From Pseudomonadota bacterium (lineage in GTDB: Bacteria > Pseudomonadota > Gammaproteobacteria > Xanthomonadales > Rhodanobacteraceae), in contig JAJYSM010000034.1 in NCBI GenBank assembly GCA_021793575.1, forward strand, positions 1 through 35,571: a stretch of DNA of 35,571 nucleotides, in the 5' to 3' direction. A program made the position numbers and the translations under genes. The notes beneath the pieces were generated by a model that saw only the letters and a list, made by a program, of their open reading frames with translations, was not told the DNA's origin and did not search any database. Positions 4,253 through 17,840 of the stretch are shown piece after piece (the stretch's first letter is position 1; each line of letters opens with the position of its first letter).

Positions 4253-7147
4253 TCAGAACTTCACGCTGGCCTGCACGTAGGTGAAGCGGCTGGGCGTGTC
4301 GTAGGTCGACGCGTCGTAGCCGTTCAGCGAACACGACACGCAGATCGGCGGCTGCTTGTTCCACAGGTTGTTGATGCCGGCGCTCAGCGTCATATCCAGG
4401 CTGAGCGGCAGCTTCCAGCTGGCGCGCAGATCCTGATAGACCACCGCCCCGAGGTAGTGGGTGCCGTTCGGGCGGGTCGGCGTGATCTCGCTGGGATGGT
4501 TGCAGATCGCGTAGCCGGCGGCAGCCGAGCAGTCCTCCTTCAGTGCGCTGGTGTAGCGGAAGCGGGTATTGACGCTCCAGGCCTGGTGCGACCAGCCCAG
4601 ATCCAGATTCGACGACAGCCGCGGGATCGCGCTGTCGTTGAGTTCCAGCCCCACGCTGCGCGGCTCCACGTTGCCGGCCTTGTTGCTGGCCCGGTAGTTG
4701 GAGACGTAGGTGCTCTGCCAGTTGGCGGTGAACACGCCGATGGCGGATTCCGGTCCGCGCCAGTTCACGCCGATGTCCCAGCCGCTGGTGTTGATCAAGC
4801 CCAGGTTTTGCAGGGTGTTGTCGAAGCCGTCGATGTTGCCGGTAGCGTTGCGGTGGATGCCGGCGCAGAACACCGAGGTGGGGCTGCCACTGTCCACGCA
4901 GCGGTTGAGCTTGGTCTGCGCATCCAGCGCCTGGATCGCGCCGTCGATCTTGATGCGGTAATACCCCACGGTGAGGTCGAGCCGGTTGGCCCATGCCGTG
5001 TTGGCTGCCCAACTCGGGCTGTAGACCGCGCCAGCGGTCAGGCTGCGCGCGGTTTCCGGCTGCAGGCTGGCGTTGCCGCCGGTGCGCACCGAGATCTGCG
5101 TGTTGGACTGGCTGTAGCCGGCCGGCACGCCAAAGCCGGCGCACTTGCTGGCGGTCTGCGGGTTGGCGATTGGCGCCGAGCAGGGATCCAGCAATACCGC
5201 GTCGAAGCGCGCCGGCGATCCGAACAGCTCGCCGATCGACGGCGCGCGGAAGCCCTGCGCCAGCGTGCTGCGCAGGGTCAGGTCGTCGAATACCTGCCAG
5301 CGCAGGCCCAGCTTGCTGTTGGTGGTGCCGCCGAAGGTGGAGTAGTCCGAGTAGCGGGTCGCCGCGGACAGGTCCAGCGATTTCACACCGGGCAGATCCT
5401 TCAGCAGCGGCGCGTTCAACTCCAGGTAGTACTCGTTGATCGAGTAGCTGCCGGAGATCGGCAGCGACGGCACGCCGTTGGATTCGCCCGCCACCACCAC
5501 CGCGTCGGGTTGGTAGCTGCCGCGGTAATTGCGGTGCTCGAAGCCGGAGGCGAAATTGACGGTGCCCGCCGGCAGCTCGAACAGGTTGCCGGAGAGGTTG
5601 GCGGTGGCCAGCTGCAGTTTGTTCTCGCTGGTGTCGTGCTCGATGTACTGGATGTACTGCAGCATCGCCGGGGTCAGCGTGCCGGGGCCGCTGAAGAAGT
5701 TCAGCGGCACGCAGCTGCCGGTGCAGTTGGCCAGCGGGCCCAGCCCGCGCTGGATGTGCGCGATGTTGTAGGTGCCGTGCACCGTCTGGGTGGCCTTGTT
5801 GTCGCCGCTGGCGAGGTTCACGTCCCAGTTCAGGTCATGCTGGCCGATGCTGAAGCTGCCCTCCAGGCCGGTGGCGAAGTAGGCGGTGTCGACTTGCTGC
5901 TCGAAGATGCGCGGGCCGCCCTCGACCGGCCGCCGCGCCAGCAGGATGAGGTTGCCGTTGGCTGGATCGGGGTTGAGGGTGAAGCCGAACGGGTTGTACG
6001 GATTGGTCACGTCCACCCCGACGCTGTCGGCGAGGCCGCCGGTGCCGGCACCGGGTCCCAGGAAGATCGGCTCCGGCGCGGCTTGGTTGACCGACTTGCG
6101 CGTGTTGTACAGGCCGCGCATGTACCAGGTGACGTTGTCGGTGACCTTGTAACGCGTCTGCGCAAAGATCGCGTTGCGTTCGCTCGGGGTCAGCAGCATG
6201 TTGTAGCGGGCGAAGTTGAAGCGGTCGGCGCCGGTGAAGTGATGGTAGTCGCCGGGGTAGGACGGCTTGCCGGCGAACGTGCCGTTGGGCGTGACGCTCA
6301 CCGTGGCGCCGGTGCCGTCGGTGAAGATGAAGCGGCCGGTCGGGGTGGCCGAGCTGCAGTTGTCCAGTCCGGTGCCGGGTACGCACGCGTTGCTGGACTG
6401 GCCCCAGGCGTTGGAGAAGATCGCGTCCTGCTTGACATGGCTGACATCGACGAAGAATTCGTAGCGGTCGGTCTTGCCGCCGAACGACAGGTCGGCGCTG
6501 CTGGTGGTACCGCCCTTGAGGTTGTTGTAGTCGCCGATGTAGAAATTGGCCGCCGCACCCTGCTGCGAGCGCTTGGTGATGATGTTGACCACGCCGGCGA
6601 TGGCGTCCGAGCCGTACAGCGCAGAGGCGCCGTCCTGCAGGATCTCGATGCGCTCGATGATACTGGCCGGGATGGTGTTCAGGTCCACCGCGGCGGAGAC
6701 GCCCGAGGCGGAGCTCTCGTTCACCCAGCGGATGCCGTCGACCAGGATCAGCACGCGCTTGGCGCCGAGGTTGCGCAGGTCGAGCGTGGCCGAGCCGGAG
6801 CCCACGCCGCTGCCGTCCGGCGCGAAGCCGAAGTTGCCGGCCGAGTTGAACTTGGTGTTGAGCGCGGAGCCCGCCGAGCTCAGCTGCTGCAGGATGTCGC
6901 CGATGCTGGTCAGGCCGGTCTTCTGAATGTCGGCCGCGCTGATCGTGATCACCGGCACCTGGCTGGCCATGTCGGCGCCCTTGATGCGCGTGCCGGTCAC
7001 CTCGATCGACTGCAGGTTGGTGGCCGTCTTGGGTGCGGCCGCAGGCTGATCCTGCGCATGGGCGGCCGTGGCGCCCAGCGAGAGGGTGGCGAACAGGGCG
7101 CTGGACAGCGCCAGAGCGAGCCGATGATGAGGCAGTGCAGGATGCAT
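4253..7147 (-). CDS. TonB-dependent outer-membrane receptor
   Basis: This outer-membrane beta-barrel imports a bound ligand with energy from TonB; the ligand cannot be read from the sequence. The 964-residue protein has a signal peptide ending near AHAQ, a TonB-box-like IEVTGT segment, a plug domain ([53 protein letters not shown]) and a long barrel ending in the typical terminal phenylalanine (VQASVKF). All twelve cysteines occur in six close pairs, suggesting disulfide-bonded extracellular loops. The ATG at 7147 has a GGGGAGAA ribosome site 6-7 bases upstream. No transporter, sigma factor or glycoside hydrolase gene lies beside it, so context does not reveal the substrate. Confidence 0.95.
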
Positions 7148-12962: not shown

Positions 12963-15900
12963 ATGAGCACAGCGCGTGCACCAGCCACCAATCCAGCCAT
13001 GAATCGTGATGCCGCCGTGGAGATTCCGCTGCAACCCGCGTCCTACGACATCTGGGACAAGAAGTATCGCCTCAAGGCGAAGTCCGGCGAGCCGGTGGAT
13101 GTCAGCATCGACGACACCTACCAGCGCGTGGCGCGCGCGCTGTCCGAGGTCGAGGCCAGCGACGAACTGCGTCAGCACTGGTTCGAGCGCTTCCTGTGGG
13201 CGCTGCGCCGCGGCGCGATCCCCGCCGGCCGCATCACCTCCAACGCCGGCGCGCTGGCGCACAAGCCGGCCACCAGCACGATCAACTGCACCGTCTCGGG
13301 CACCATCCGCGATTCGATGGACGACATCCTGGAGAAAGTCCACGAGGCCGGCCTCACGCTGAAGGCGGGGTGCGGAATTGGCTATGAATTCAGTACGTTA
13401 CGTCCACGCGGCGCGTATGTCTCCGGCGCCGGCGCGTATACCAGCGGCCCGCTGTCGTTCATGGATATCTACGACAAGATGTGCTTCACCGTGTCCTCCG
13501 CCGGCGGCCGCCGCGGTGCGCAGATGGGCACCTTCGACATCAGCCATCCGGACGCCAAGGAGTTCATCCGCGCCAAGCGCGAGGACGGCCGGCTGCGCCA
13601 GTTCAACCTCAGCCTGCTGATCACCGACGGCTTCATGGACGCGGTGGAAAACGACCAGGACTGGCCGCTGGTGTATCCGGTGCACGTCAAGGAGCAGCAC
13701 GAGATCGACCTCGCCGACCCCACCAAGGTGGTGTGGCGCGAGTGGCCCACGCACGAGAACTACGTCGACCGCGAGGACGGCCTGGTCGCCTGCAAGATCT
13801 ACAGCCACATCCGCGCGCGGCATCTGTGGGACATGATCATGGTGTCCACCTACGACTACGCCGAGCCCGGCTTCATCCTGATCGACAAGGTCAACGAGAT
13901 GAACAACAACTGGTGGTGCGAGCACATCCGCGCCACCAACCCGTGCGTTACCGCCGACACGCGCCTGGCCACCCAGTACGGCATGGTGCCGATCGGCGAG
14001 CTGCACGCCAGCGGTGCGCCGCTGCAGGTGTCGGTGGATCGCCGCTCGCTGGAGCAGGAAGGCCGCGGTGTGGAAACACGGCCGGCGAAACCGGCCTTCA
14101 TGACCGCCGCCCGCGCACCGGTGTTCCGCGTGGTCACCGAGGACGGCTACGCGATCAAGGCGACCGAATGGCACGACTTCTACGTCGAGCGCGGCAAGCT
14201 CAAGCTGCGTGACCTGAAAGTCGGCGATCGCCTGCTGGTGCAGTCGGGCAAGGGTCAGTTCGGCCAGCAGGGCAGCGATGATCTGGGGCTGCTGCTGGGC
14301 CTGATCACCGGCGATGGCCACTTCACCAACCGCGGCAAGGAGCAGCAGGCCGCCATTGTCAGCCTGTGGGGTGAGGAACGCGCCCTGGCCGACCGCGTGG
14401 CGGCCTACATCAACACCCTGATTGCGCACACGGCCCAGGGCAACCTGCGGGAATACCGGGTGGCGCCGGTGGCGGTTCCCGAGCGCAACCACGTGTTCAT
14501 CCGCTCGGTGCTGCTGGCGCGGCTGCTCGAACACTACGGCTTCAGCGCCGCGACCAAGCTGCGCGTGCCCGAGGTGATCTGGCGCGGCAGCGAAGCCTGC
14601 GTCAAGAGCTATCTGCGCGCCCTGTTCCAGTGCGATGGCACCGTCAACGTATCGAGCCGCAGCCTGAGCTGTTCGATACGACTGGCCTCCAGCCAGCCGG
14701 AGCTGCTCAGGGACGTGCAGATGCTGCTGGCCAACCTCGGCGTGTTCTGCCGCATCAAGCAGCGCCGCAGCGCCGGCATGCGCACGCTGCCGGACGGCCA
14801 TGGCGGTGCGCGCGACTATGCCTGCGCCGCCGACCACGAGTTGATCATCGACGGCGAGTCGCGCGAGCAGTTCATGCACGAGGTCGGCTTCCTGCTGCCG
14901 ACGAAGACGCAGCGCTACCTCGATTGGCGCGAAGGCAAGGCCTTGCGCAAGACGCAGCGCTTCACCTCGCGCATCGCCAGCATCGAGTTCATCGGCGAGG
15001 AGGCCGTGTTCGACACCACCCAGCCCGACCACAACGCGGTGATCTTCAACGGCCTGGTGACCGGGCAATGTGGCGAGCAGCCCTTGCCGCCGTATGGCTC
15101 GTGCCTGCTCGGCTCGATCAACCTCACCACCTTCGTGCGCGATCCGTTCGGGCCGAAGGCGCGCTTCGACTGGGACGAGTACCGCGAGGTGGTGAAGGTG
15201 TTCACCCGCATGCTCGACAACGTGGTGGAGATCAACGGCCTGCCGCTGCCGCAGCAGCGCCACGAGATCGAATCCAAACGCCGCCATGGCATGGGTTTCC
15301 TCGGCCTGGGCAGCACGCTGACCATGCTCAAGCACCGCTATGGCACCGCCGAGGCGGTGGCGTTCACCGAGGAAGTGTCGCGCGAGCTGGCGGTGGCCGG
15401 CTGGGAAATGGCGCTGGAACTGGCGAAGGAAAAAGGCCCGGCGCCGATCCTGCTGCAGGACTTCACCGTCACCGGCGACATGCTGCGCAAGCGCCCGGAG
15501 ATGGTCGCCGACGGCTACAAGGTGGGCGACAGTATCCCCGGCCGCGTGCTGCACGCCCGCTACAGCCGCTACATGCAGCGCATCGCCAGCGTGGCGCCCA
15601 ACCTGGTGGCCGAGCTGGCCGAGACCGGTGCGCGCTTCACCCACCACAGCTCGATCGCGCCCACCGGCACCATCTCGCTGAGCCTCGCCAACAATGCCAG
15701 CAACGGCATCGAGCCCAGCTTTGCCCACAGCTATTCGCGCAACGTGATCCGCGAGGGCAAGAAGTCAAAGGAAAAGGTCGAGGTGCTCAGCTACGAGCTG
15801 CTCGCCTACCGCGCGCTGATCAACGCCGAGGCCAAGGCGTTCACCGACGAGCCGGCCAACCAGCTGCCGGCGTACTTCGTGGCCGCCGACGACATCAGCC

Positions 15901-16250
15901 CGAAGGAGCACGTGGACATTCAGGCCGCCTCGCAGAAATGGATCGACTCGTCCATCTCCAAGACCGCCAACGTGCCCACCGACTATCCCTACGAAGACTT
16001 CAAGGACATCTACTTCTACGCCTACAAGCAGGGCCTGAAAGGGTGCACCACCTTCCGCTTCAACCCCGCCGCGTTCCAGGGCGTGCTGGTGAAAGAGTCC
16101 GATCTTGAAAGCACCCTCTACCGCTTCGAGTTGGAGGACGGTAGTGTTGTCGAACTGAAAGGCAACGAGCAGGTGGAGTACGACGGCGAGATGCATTCGG
16201 CCGCCAACCTCTTCGATGCCTTGAAGGAAGGCTACTACGGCAAGTTCTGA
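12963..16250 (+). CDS. nrdJa: Cobalamin-dependent class II ribonucleotide reductase, large part NrdJa, with intein
   Basis: This enzyme reduces ribonucleotides to deoxyribonucleotides with an adenosylcobalamin-generated thiyl radical. The 1095-residue reading contains a 375-residue intein; the joined exteins give 720 residues, the size of NrdJa in split class II enzymes such as that of Pseudomonas aeruginosa. Visible are redox cysteine C109 (STINCTVSGT), the radical cysteine C703 and glutamate E705 (CGEQPLPPYGSC), redox partner C714, GSINLTTF, and the phosphate-binding APTGTISL loop. The protein lacks the usual C-terminal zinc ribbon, which NrdJb supplies. The ATG at 12963 has AGG-rich ribosome sites just upstream; another ATG at 12999 lacks one. 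Splicing is needed to rebuild the active site. Confidence 0.95.
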   Translation: MSTARAPATNPAMNRDAAVEIPLQPASYDIWDKKYRLKAKSGEPVDVSIDDTYQRVARALSEVEASDELRQHWFERFLWALRRGAIPAGRITSNAGALAHKPATSTINCTVSGTIRDSMDDILEKVHEAGLTLKAGCGIGYEFSTLRPRGAYVSGAGAYTSGPLSFMDIYDKMCFTVSSAGGRRGAQMGTFDISHPDAKEFIRAKREDGRLRQFNLSLLITDGFMDAVENDQDWPLVYPVHVKEQHEIDLADPTKVVWREWPTHENYVDREDGLVACKIYSHIRARHLWDMIMVSTYDYAEPGFILIDKVNEMNNNWWCEHIRATNPCVTADTRLATQYGMVPIGELHASGAPLQVSVDRRSLEQEGRGVETRPAKPAFMTAARAPVFRVVTEDGYAIKATEWHDFYVERGKLKLRDLKVGDRLLVQSGKGQFGQQGSDDLGLLLGLITGDGHFTNRGKEQQAAIVSLWGEERALADRVAAYINTLIAHTAQGNLREYRVAPVAVPERNHVFIRSVLLARLLEHYGFSAATKLRVPEVIWRGSEACVKSYLRALFQCDGTVNVSSRSLSCSIRLASSQPELLRDVQMLLANLGVFCRIKQRRSAGMRTLPDGHGGARDYACAADHELIIDGESREQFMHEVGFLLPTKTQRYLDWREGKALRKTQRFTSRIASIEFIGEEAVFDTTQPDHNAVIFNGLVTGQCGEQPLPPYGSCLLGSINLTTFVRDPFGPKARFDWDEYREVVKVFTRMLDNVVEINGLPLPQQRHEIESKRRHGMGFLGLGSTLTMLKHRYGTAEAVAFTEEVSRELAVAGWEMALELAKEKGPAPILLQDFTVTGDMLRKRPEMVADGYKVGDSIPGRVLHARYSRYMQRIASVAPNLVAELAETGARFTHHSSIAPTGTISLSLANNASNGIEPSFAHSYSRNVIREGKKSKEKVEVLSYELLAYRALINAEAKAFTDEPANQLPAYFVAADDISPKEHVDIQAASQKWIDSSISKTANVPTDYPYEDFKDIYFYAYKQGLKGCTTFRFNPAAFQGVLVKESDLESTLYRFELEDGSVVELKGNEQVEYDGEMHSAANLFDALKEGYYGKF
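13944..15068 (+). mobile_element. LAGLIDADG intein in NrdJa (residues 328-702)
   Basis: This is an in-frame protein intron with a homing endonuclease. It begins with Cys (CVTADTRL, block A), has block B with TxxH (ATEWHDF), two LAGLIDADG motifs (LLLGLITGDGHF and YLRALFQCDGTV), block F (EAVFDTTQPDHNAVIFNG) and ends GLVTGQ followed by extein Cys. Removing it restores ATNP-CGEQPLPPYG, the uninterrupted reductase sequence, so both borders are firm. The penultimate Gly and terminal Gln replace the usual His-Asn; terminal Gln is known from a few inteins, including a viral ribonucleotide reductase intein. Whether it splices efficiently cannot be read from sequence. Confidence 0.93.
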
Positions 16251-16353: not shown

Positions 16354-16947
16354 ATGTCCATCGATACCGAAGTCGCCGTCACCACTGCCGCACCCGCCAC
16401 CACCGAAGTGCCCGCCGTCGCGGTGCCGGCCACGCCGGCACCGATGTCGGCCGCTCCGGCGGCGGCGCCGAAGAAGAAGCCGGCGGTGAAGAAGGCTGCC
16501 GCCAAGCCAGCCGCCGCGCCGGTCGTCGCGCCGGTCGTCGCGCCGAAGCCGGCTGCGCCGGTCAAGGCCGCCGCGAAGAAAGCCGCGCCCAAGAAAGCCG
16601 CGCCGAAAAAGGCAGCGGCCAAGAAGGTCGCCAAGAAGGCTGCGCCGAAAAAGGCAGCCGTCAAGAAAATCGTGAAAAAAGCCGTCAAGAAAGCGGTGAA
16701 GAAAGCCGTCAAGAAGGCCGCCGTCGCCAAAAAGACGGTGAAGAAGGCGGTCAAGAAGGTCGCAAAGAAGGTCAGCAGCAAAAAGACGGCCGCCAAGAAG
16801 GCCGCGCCGAAGAAGGCGGCAGTCAAGAAGTCCGCCAGCAAGAAGAAGGTCGTCGCCAAGACGGCCAAGAGGTCCACTGCCAGCAAGAAAGCGGTCAAGT
16901 CGGCGAAGAAACCCGCCGCCAAAAAAGCCGCCGCAAAAAAGAAGTAA
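16354..16947 (+). CDS. Histone H1/AlgP-like lysine- and alanine-rich protein
   Basis: This is a predicted DNA-binding, histone H1-like protein of 197 residues. Residues 1 to about 40 are Ala/Pro/Val/Thr-rich and nearly uncharged. The rest is a long chain of KKAA, KKAVKK and PKKAA repeats ending AAKKK, so it is strongly basic, disordered and low in complexity, like AlgP/AlgR3 of pseudomonads and H1-like proteins of other bacteria. The ATG at 16354 has GGAGGGG about 8 bases upstream. It sits between nrdJa and nrdJb on the same strand and is likely co-transcribed. The repetitive, A-rich coding makes length variation between strains likely. The function is inferred from composition only. Confidence 0.85.
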   Translation: MSIDTEVAVTTAAPATTEVPAVAVPATPAPMSAAPAAAPKKKPAVKKAAAKPAAAPVVAPVVAPKPAAPVKAAAKKAAPKKAAPKKAAAKKVAKKAAPKKAAVKKIVKKAVKKAVKKAVKKAAVAKKTVKKAVKKVAKKVSSKKTAAKKAAPKKAAVKKSASKKKVVAKTAKRSTASKKAVKSAKKPAAKKAAAKKK

Positions 16948-17081: not shown

Positions 17082-17840
17082 ATGTCCATCAAGATCGACC
17101 AGAAGATCACCGGCTACAACGTGGTCAAACCCGAAGACAAGGCTGTCGCCCCGGTCGCTCCCGCCGCGGCCAAGGAGCCACGGCAGGCCGAAGTGATCCA
17201 GATGCACGAGAGTGTCGAGCGGCCGGAAACTCTGGTCGGCTCCACCTTCAAGGTCAAGTCGCCGCTGTTCGAGCACGCCTTGTACGTCACCATCAACGAC
17301 ATCGTGCTCAACGCCGGCACCAGGCACGAGCTGCGCCGCCCGTTCGAGATCTTCATCAACTCCAAGAACATGGACCACTTCCAGTGGATCGTGGCGCTCA
17401 CCCGGCTGATGTCCGCCGTGTTCCGCAAGGGCGGCGACGTCACCTTCATCGTGGAAGAGCTGAAGGCCGTGTTCGACCCCCGCGGCGGCTACTTCAAGGC
17501 CGGCGGCGTCTACATGCCCAGCATCGTCGCCGAGATCGGCGCGGTGATCGAGCAGCACATGAAGAACATCGGCCTCATCCACGACCCGGAGATGGACGAG
17601 GGTACGCGCAAGCTGATCGCCGAGAAGCGGGCGGCGTATGAGGCGGCCGGGGCAAAAAAAAACCCTGATGCCGCCGCTGTTCCTGTGGGAGCGGCTTCAG
17701 CCGCGATAGCCTCCCATGACGCCGAATCCTCCGGCTTCCCGCCCGGCGCCACGCTGTGCGCCAAGTGCAACACGCAGGCGCTGGTGCTGATGGATGGGTG
17801 TCAGACGTGTCTGAATTGTGGGTATTCGAAGTGCGGGTAA
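17082..17840 (+). CDS. nrdJb: Class II ribonucleotide reductase C-terminal component NrdJb
   Basis: NrdJb is the separate C-terminal part of a split class II ribonucleotide reductase, needed with NrdJa for activity in P. aeruginosa. The 252-residue protein has a conserved core (about 50-185: STFKVKSPLFEHALYVTIND, RPFEIFINSKN, AVFRKGGDVTFIVEELK) and a C-terminal zinc-ribbon/redox tail with C226, C229, C240, C243, C246 and C251 (SKCG end). Between them, residues about 188-215 are an odd low-conservation stretch. It is encoded by an A9 run (17654-17662) and a REP-like palindrome at 17684-17708, both read in frame. The ATG at 17082 follows an AGAAGAAGAAG ribosome-site stretch. It lies 134 bases after the histone-like gene. 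Confidence 0.92.
   Translation: MSIKIDQKITGYNVVKPEDKAVAPVAPAAAKEPRQAEVIQMHESVERPETLVGSTFKVKSPLFEHALYVTINDIVLNAGTRHELRRPFEIFINSKNMDHFQWIVALTRLMSAVFRKGGDVTFIVEELKAVFDPRGGYFKAGGVYMPSIVAEIGAVIEQHMKNIGLIHDPEMDEGTRKLIAEKRAAYEAAGAKKNPDAAAVPVGAASAAIASHDAESSGFPPGATLCAKCNTQALVLMDGCQTCLNCGYSKCG
17684..17708. repeat. REP-like palindrome inside nrdJb
   Basis: TGTGGGAGCGGCTTCAGCCG and its continuation (GCGGC-TTCA-GCCGC stem) match the GTGGGAGCGGCTTCAGCCGC type of repetitive extragenic palindrome that I know as abundant between genes of pseudomonads and xanthomonads. Here it is within a coding region and keeps the frame. I found no second copy in the window. Confidence 0.6.

Follow-up and report, generated by a model that had tools for sequence, protein, structure and literature searches.

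The window (the whole 35,571-nucleotide stretch of DNA that was analyzed, contig JAJYSM010000034.1 of the Rhodanobacteraceae assembly GCA_021793575.1) encodes a split class II (AdoCbl) ribonucleotide reductase (RNR), with the gene for the catalytic subunit, nrdJa, at 12963..16250 and that for the second chain, nrdJb, at 17082..17840, both on the forward strand, as are all intein and active-site features below. The nrdJa product matched TIGR02504 with 566.6 bits (cut-off 399.95), and the nrdJb product matched PF12637 (TSCPD, 36.0 versus 22.8 bits) and aligned to positions 583-759 of the 759 of PRK08665, below that model's cut-off. In the split class II enzyme of P. aeruginosa, NrdJa holds the catalytic machinery and AdoCbl binding and NrdJb carries out thiol-disulfide exchange (PMC4520616). 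Between the two genes lies a Lys/Ala-rich ORF of 197 aa (16354-16947, forward strand) that is histone H1-like in look and gave no Pfam or NCBIfam match at E 0.001, and about 6 kb away from the B12-dependent reductase the reverse strand (4253-7147) encodes a TonB-dependent receptor that partly resembles the vitamin B12 receptor, at a score below cut-off. Elsewhere, the draft genome (3.2 Mb, 123 contigs) encodes nrdB and a second large subunit, nrdA, whose SNLCTE site is uninterrupted, and a genome-wide search for class III NrdD returned no match at E <= 0.001.

Within nrdJa sits an intein of 375 aa (Cys1 to Gln375, residues 328-702 of the product, 13944..15068), supported by TIGR01445, the predicted fold and intein-free relatives, such that the ORF translation is 1095 aa long with the intein and 720 aa once it is removed; both PF02867 in the nrdJa product and PF14528 in the intein scored above their Pfam cut-offs. 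The first-pass annotation had placed the intein exactly between Asn326-Pro327 and Cys703-Gly704-Glu705, and a script run on the ORF returned the same placement, with 13938..13940 for Asn326, which belongs to the catalytic N-P-C-G-E group on the N-extein side and is presumably catalytic as in class I/II RNR, 13941-13943 for Pro327, the last N-extein residue before the intein, and 15069..15077 for Cys703-Gly704-Glu705, with Cys703 a TGT codon at 15069-15071 and Glu705 at 15075-15077. A phmmer comparison with solved structures paired Cys703 (..CGE) with C322 of T. maritima NrdJ (1xje, STNPCGE), which we take to be the radical cysteine, so that, as the annotation also held, the radical cysteine doubles as the +1 splicing residue and 375 residues separate the two parts of the catalytic N-x-C-x-E group. 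Alignment with intein-free NrdJa, which the annotation had named as a check, did not place the radical cysteine elsewhere, with NPCGE uninterrupted in 26 parsed loci of intein-free relatives. The unspliced NrdJa precursor is thus probably inactive. An assembly artefact or a wrong reading frame, to which a draft genome in 123 contigs might be prone, is refuted by other, independent assemblies, in which about two dozen loci, those of R. fulvus Jip2 and of two Azotobacter strains included, carry this insert at the very same residue, and we give it next to no weight.

Structurally, the intein combines most of the parts expected of a class 1 element that also carries a homing endonuclease. Its N-terminal region matched TIGR01445 (35.7 versus a cut-off of 24.5 bits), and PF14890 (Intein_splicing) reached 33.6 against 35.8 bits, 2.2 bits under its cut-off. 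Block B contains T74-E-W-H77 (TxxH, 14163..14174), the LAGLIDADG_3 domain (PF14528, 89 bits) spans 14598..14888, and blocks F and G occupy 15006..15068, ending N-G-L-V-T-G-Q. The two LAGLIDADG aspartates, D124 (14313-14315, upstream of the PF14528 stretch) and D231 (14634-14636), are, like T74, H77 and V372-T373-G374-Q375, invariant in 28/28 aligned loci of this intein family (hereafter family A), which together with the PF14528 match points to a two-motif LAGLIDADG homing endonuclease. The structure prediction (mean pLDDT 89.7) gave a modeled HINT fold plus endonuclease domain, and Foldseek found the model to resemble intein-endonucleases, with TliVMA and PI-PfuI among the best matches and PI-SceI also present. 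Cys1, TxxH, the +1 Cys (C703) and uninterrupted host homologues are all class 1 characters, whereas the C-terminal Asn of that class is replaced by Gln375 (Gln and Asp are documented variants) and the penultimate His, often though not always present, by Gly374, again in 28/28 loci. Since Gln is a documented splicing variant (PMC4031507), we file the intein as a Gln-terminal variant of class 1. This Gly-Gln end, a departure from the usual His-Asn, was absent from the first-pass annotation, as was the downstream nrdJb.

Across relatives, the unusual end proved to be a family rule. Among 42 intein-bearing loci parsed (some of them copies of one another, and the window counted three times), the intein and host residues met as VTGQ/CGE in 31 and as HAHN/CGE in 11, where the slash marks the junction. 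An alignment of 28 family A loci, 26 of them distinct and the window included, has 98 invariant positions, including Cys1, T74, H77, D124, D231, D357 and the V-T-G-Q end, and two more loci, L057 (VTGQ/CAE) and L058, are consistent with the family A end; L057, from 3437 onward, is a Moraxellaceae MAG locus with CAE after the intein instead of CGE. In a survey of the class, matches were found in 53 of 369 genomes (the window's own included), and 25 of the best 29 loci besides the window could be parsed, all 25 with the intein at NP/CGE; nine end in GQ (7 VTGQ, 1 VSGQ, 1 ATGQ) and 16 in HN, some of them possibly repeating species of the loci collected earlier. The four remaining loci of the best 29 comprise two that end VTGQ (L225, L227), one with the intein start only (L219) and one unparsed (L228). 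Gly-Gln was the end of every family A member whose end was read. The block F His is missing in 6 of 26 members (L040, L045, L046, L048, L050, L054), one of which has a His one residue later, and adds to the Gly-Gln end as an odd feature of the family.

Mechanistically, terminal-Gln inteins able to splice are on record from Chilo iridescent virus RNR and from the Pho and Pab Pol-II proteins (PMC4031507, PMC8229266). The Chilo iridescent virus intein splices less well when Asn takes the place of its native Gln, which indicates that a terminal Gln is compatible with splicing, whereas two Pol II inteins spliced slowly with Gln at the end and did better with Asn (PMC4031507). Pho Pol-II differs from family A in that it keeps the penultimate His and the block F His, where family A has a penultimate Gly. 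The intein of the SPbeta phage gene bnrdE and its relatives are full-length homologues with 29-38% identity at the equivalent NL/C-x-E site (4 records, L077-L080, examined of 56 phage and 3 plasmid records matching), which differ in their phage or class Ib RNR hosts, in a -1 Leu and in an end that reads VTGN or ATGN. By annotation, SPbeta bnrdE also has an intron.

Could the Gly-Gln end instead mark decay, that is, an intein that no longer splices and leaves a dead nrdJa? The atypical end and the PF14890 score below cut-off point that way and also count against a working intein, as does the -1 Pro, a residue unfavorable for many inteins. However, the frame is open, the splicing residues are invariant, and the Gly-Gln end is shared by the family and not a private change of the window. 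Selection argues in the same direction: in comparisons of the window with L004, L005, L034, L035 and L037, all Rhodanobacter-type loci, dN/dS was 0.05-0.12 in the splicing part and 0.08-0.12 in the endonuclease, hence near 0.1 in both parts in all five. Against L006 it was 0.42 in the splicing part and 0.55 in the endonuclease, so that beyond the genus the degree of constraint varies. Decay is, on this evidence, very unlikely. From the codon comparisons the endonuclease is under purifying selection, and self-spread alone would explain the persistence of the intein.

Evolutionarily, the distribution fits a mobile element. In the 60 genomes searched, a full-length intein gene was present in 13 of the 59 other than the window's own, with family A in 2 of 35 same-genus and 1 of 24 same-order genomes, and a second family, B, in 10 of the 35 same-genus genomes; for G019, G029 and G034, represented by fragments, the state of the site could not be told. 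Family B occupies exactly the same site as family A, shares about 31% identity with the window intein along almost the whole length, is 90-97% identical internally and has the canonical His-Asn end. The window's nearest relative, 98% identical in the extein, is intein-free. An extein tree of 58 rows (32 of the 42 intein-bearing rows, with 6 duplicates and 4 truncated loci set aside, and 26 of 26 intein-free) contains seven starred sister pairs of unlike state (window/L017, L005/L026, L035/L019, L016/L067, L004/L021, L013/L030 and L015/L031), and its starred branches require the "no intein" state to have changed 11 times or more. Four long rows (L046, L076, L042, L043) cannot be relied on, nor can L023, because another intein falls within its N-extein window, and our conclusions rest on the starred pairs inside the genus. 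In one genome (G010), which has no intein at the radical Cys, NrdJa carries a different intein of roughly 430 aa that ends HN and sits before the Cys of KAGCGIGY (L245, G010:C53, about 837-2131).

Thus, we posit with considerable confidence that the insert is a self-splicing, homing class 1 type intein, chiefly a mobile element, whose splicing is probably routine. After translation of nrdJa, the intein would excise itself, with Cys1 attacking the Pro327 carbonyl, the chain then passing to the radical cysteine as the +1 residue, and cyclization of Gln375, most likely doing the job usually done by Asn, releasing the intein; excision would rebuild the NPCGE active site. The intein presumably still homes, and would persist by targeting a codon stretch that is nearly unchangeable, its splicing being routine rather than a control point. 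It is well known that inteins and group I introns favor conserved sites (PMC2814812).

The first-pass annotation had gone further, proposing that redox or metal control of splicing would gate dNTP supply, and this claim found no support. Under such conditional splicing, oxidation of Cys1 or of the +1 radical Cys, or metal binding there, would halt splicing and gate NrdJa by redox, an idea made attractive by the identity of the +1 nucleophile with the radical Cys and by two precedents, the mycobacterial DnaBi1 intein, in which oxidation blocks splicing (PMC6195587), and the reversible inhibition of DnaB splicing by zinc (PMC7360933). DnaBi1 is alike in that one residue, the P-loop serine, serves both in splicing and in the function of the host enzyme, but it is a class 3 mini-intein with a Cys48-Cys118 redox switch (PMC6195587), whereas Cys1 is the sole cysteine in the splicing domain of the window intein (residues 1-105 and 335-375), which leaves an internal-disulfide switch of the DnaBi1 kind without a partner. 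Further splicing-domain cysteines occur in 11 of 26 family A members, none of them conserved, and the other invariant cysteines (219, 243) fall within the endonuclease part; pairing of Cys1 with the +1 Cys or with extein cysteines may be the remaining route to redox trapping. Moreover, intein presence is patchy and flips between sister species, a pattern not expected of a conserved regulatory role, and because nrdA and nrdB supply a second RNR, a block of splicing is not expected to stop aerobic dNTP synthesis. With the endonuclease itself under selection, we regard redox gating as improbable; splicing at the radical cysteine as a control point is testable, and nothing in the present data favors it.

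Returning to the intein as a mobile element, its occurrence at this site is already known. An intein named rir1-b has been listed in the ribonucleoside-diphosphate reductase of R. fulvus, Rhodanobacter sp. 2APBS1, R. thiooxydans, B. subtilis and about 60 other taxa (PMC4071816), and as R. fulvus Jip2 (L033) has family A at NP/CGE, the present site is by inference that of rir1-b, with three Rhodanobacter species already on record. The available text of that account gives neither the insertion residue nor the radical cysteine, the Gly-Gln end, the split into two Rhodanobacter families or an intron, and treats group I introns only in general (PMC4071816). An nrdJa intein was also reported from Azotobacter chroococcum NCIMB 8003 (Achr_580), and potentially from R. 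fulvus (PMC4465626), in the same host gene, at the same place (aa 321-690) and with LAGLIDADG_3; it differs in its host and is about 71% identical to the window intein, and the portion of the report at hand discusses neither the radical cysteine nor the Gln end (PMC4465626). A. chroococcum DSM 2286 (L045) belongs to family A, with the same VTGQ end. The Aquifex aeolicus NrdB intein is likewise in an RNR, where it separates catalytic residues, namely two iron ligands, and splices efficiently, but it lies in the other subunit and there improved iron loading (PMC8772380). Given the rir1-b listing and the A. chroococcum report, what the present analysis adds, and what we have not seen in print, is the conserved Gly-Gln end, family B at the same site, and a probable intron one base away. 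The literature searched, which included few subscription papers, yielded neither a Rhodanobacter group I intron nor an RNR Cys codon shared by an intein and an intron.

The probable intron came from a second nrdJ copy in two same-genus genomes (G028 and G030), where inserts of 274 and 267 bases directly follow NP (L063 1651-1977, reverse strand; L064 1649-1960, forward strand; L213 6001-6255). When the flanks are joined in frame they read NPCGE, and the insert splits the Cys codon after its first base, one base from the intein site. In the insert, P3, P7 and P8 follow the group I order, P1 places a U.G pair at the 5' splice site, and the last base is G; a relative lies in phage MW202674.1 (L214 2496-2712), between the two annotated halves of a P22-like coat gene. 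P3 and P7 together hold four compensatory pairs, and the P1/P3/P7 cells are 100% paired, a level reached by 4 of 500 shuffles, in a test of three sequences only, with P1 in two. Rfam returned no group I match for the second-copy inserts or for the phage relative, which either counts against a group I reading or reflects a limit of the Rfam model, and the assignment therefore rests on topology and covariation; on these the insert is a probable group I intron. A degenerate mini-intein was considered for the same insert and rejected, because the insert starts with a stop, has no intein match and contains core helices of the group I type, in which compensatory changes occur.

In G030, the intron-bearing stretch is on a 4.2-Mb contig, and the second-copy stretch is identical over 3501 bases to a 205-kb plasmid of R. 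denitrificans FW104-R5. The intron copy was present in 2 of 45 genomes searched, and in that search the window genome had no match to it. A pattern scan of viral contigs gave 115 stretches, which are raw pattern matches; short matches (24-60 bases) and the candidates H25 and H27 in the intron searches were taken as chance, and a further, weak scan, in which only two candidates were scored per genome, added no copy. Both intron-bearing genomes carry intein B in their main nrdJa, against 10 of 35 same-genus genomes overall, although two genomes are too few to prove a link. We suggest, tentatively and as the less probable reading, that the radical-Cys codon of nrdJ is contested by intein A, intein B and a small group I intron, and that the intron may shield the second copy. 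If so, the intron, by splitting the intein target, would protect a second nrdJ, whether on a plasmid or on the chromosome, from the main-copy intein's endonuclease.

More broadly, the conserved Gly-Gln end makes family A a natural family in which to ask how Gln replaces Asn in splicing. Furthermore, self-splicing elements at the protein level and, probably, at the RNA level are found on one catalytic codon within one genus, which would provide a clean natural test of whether homing elements take up sites that the host is unable to change.
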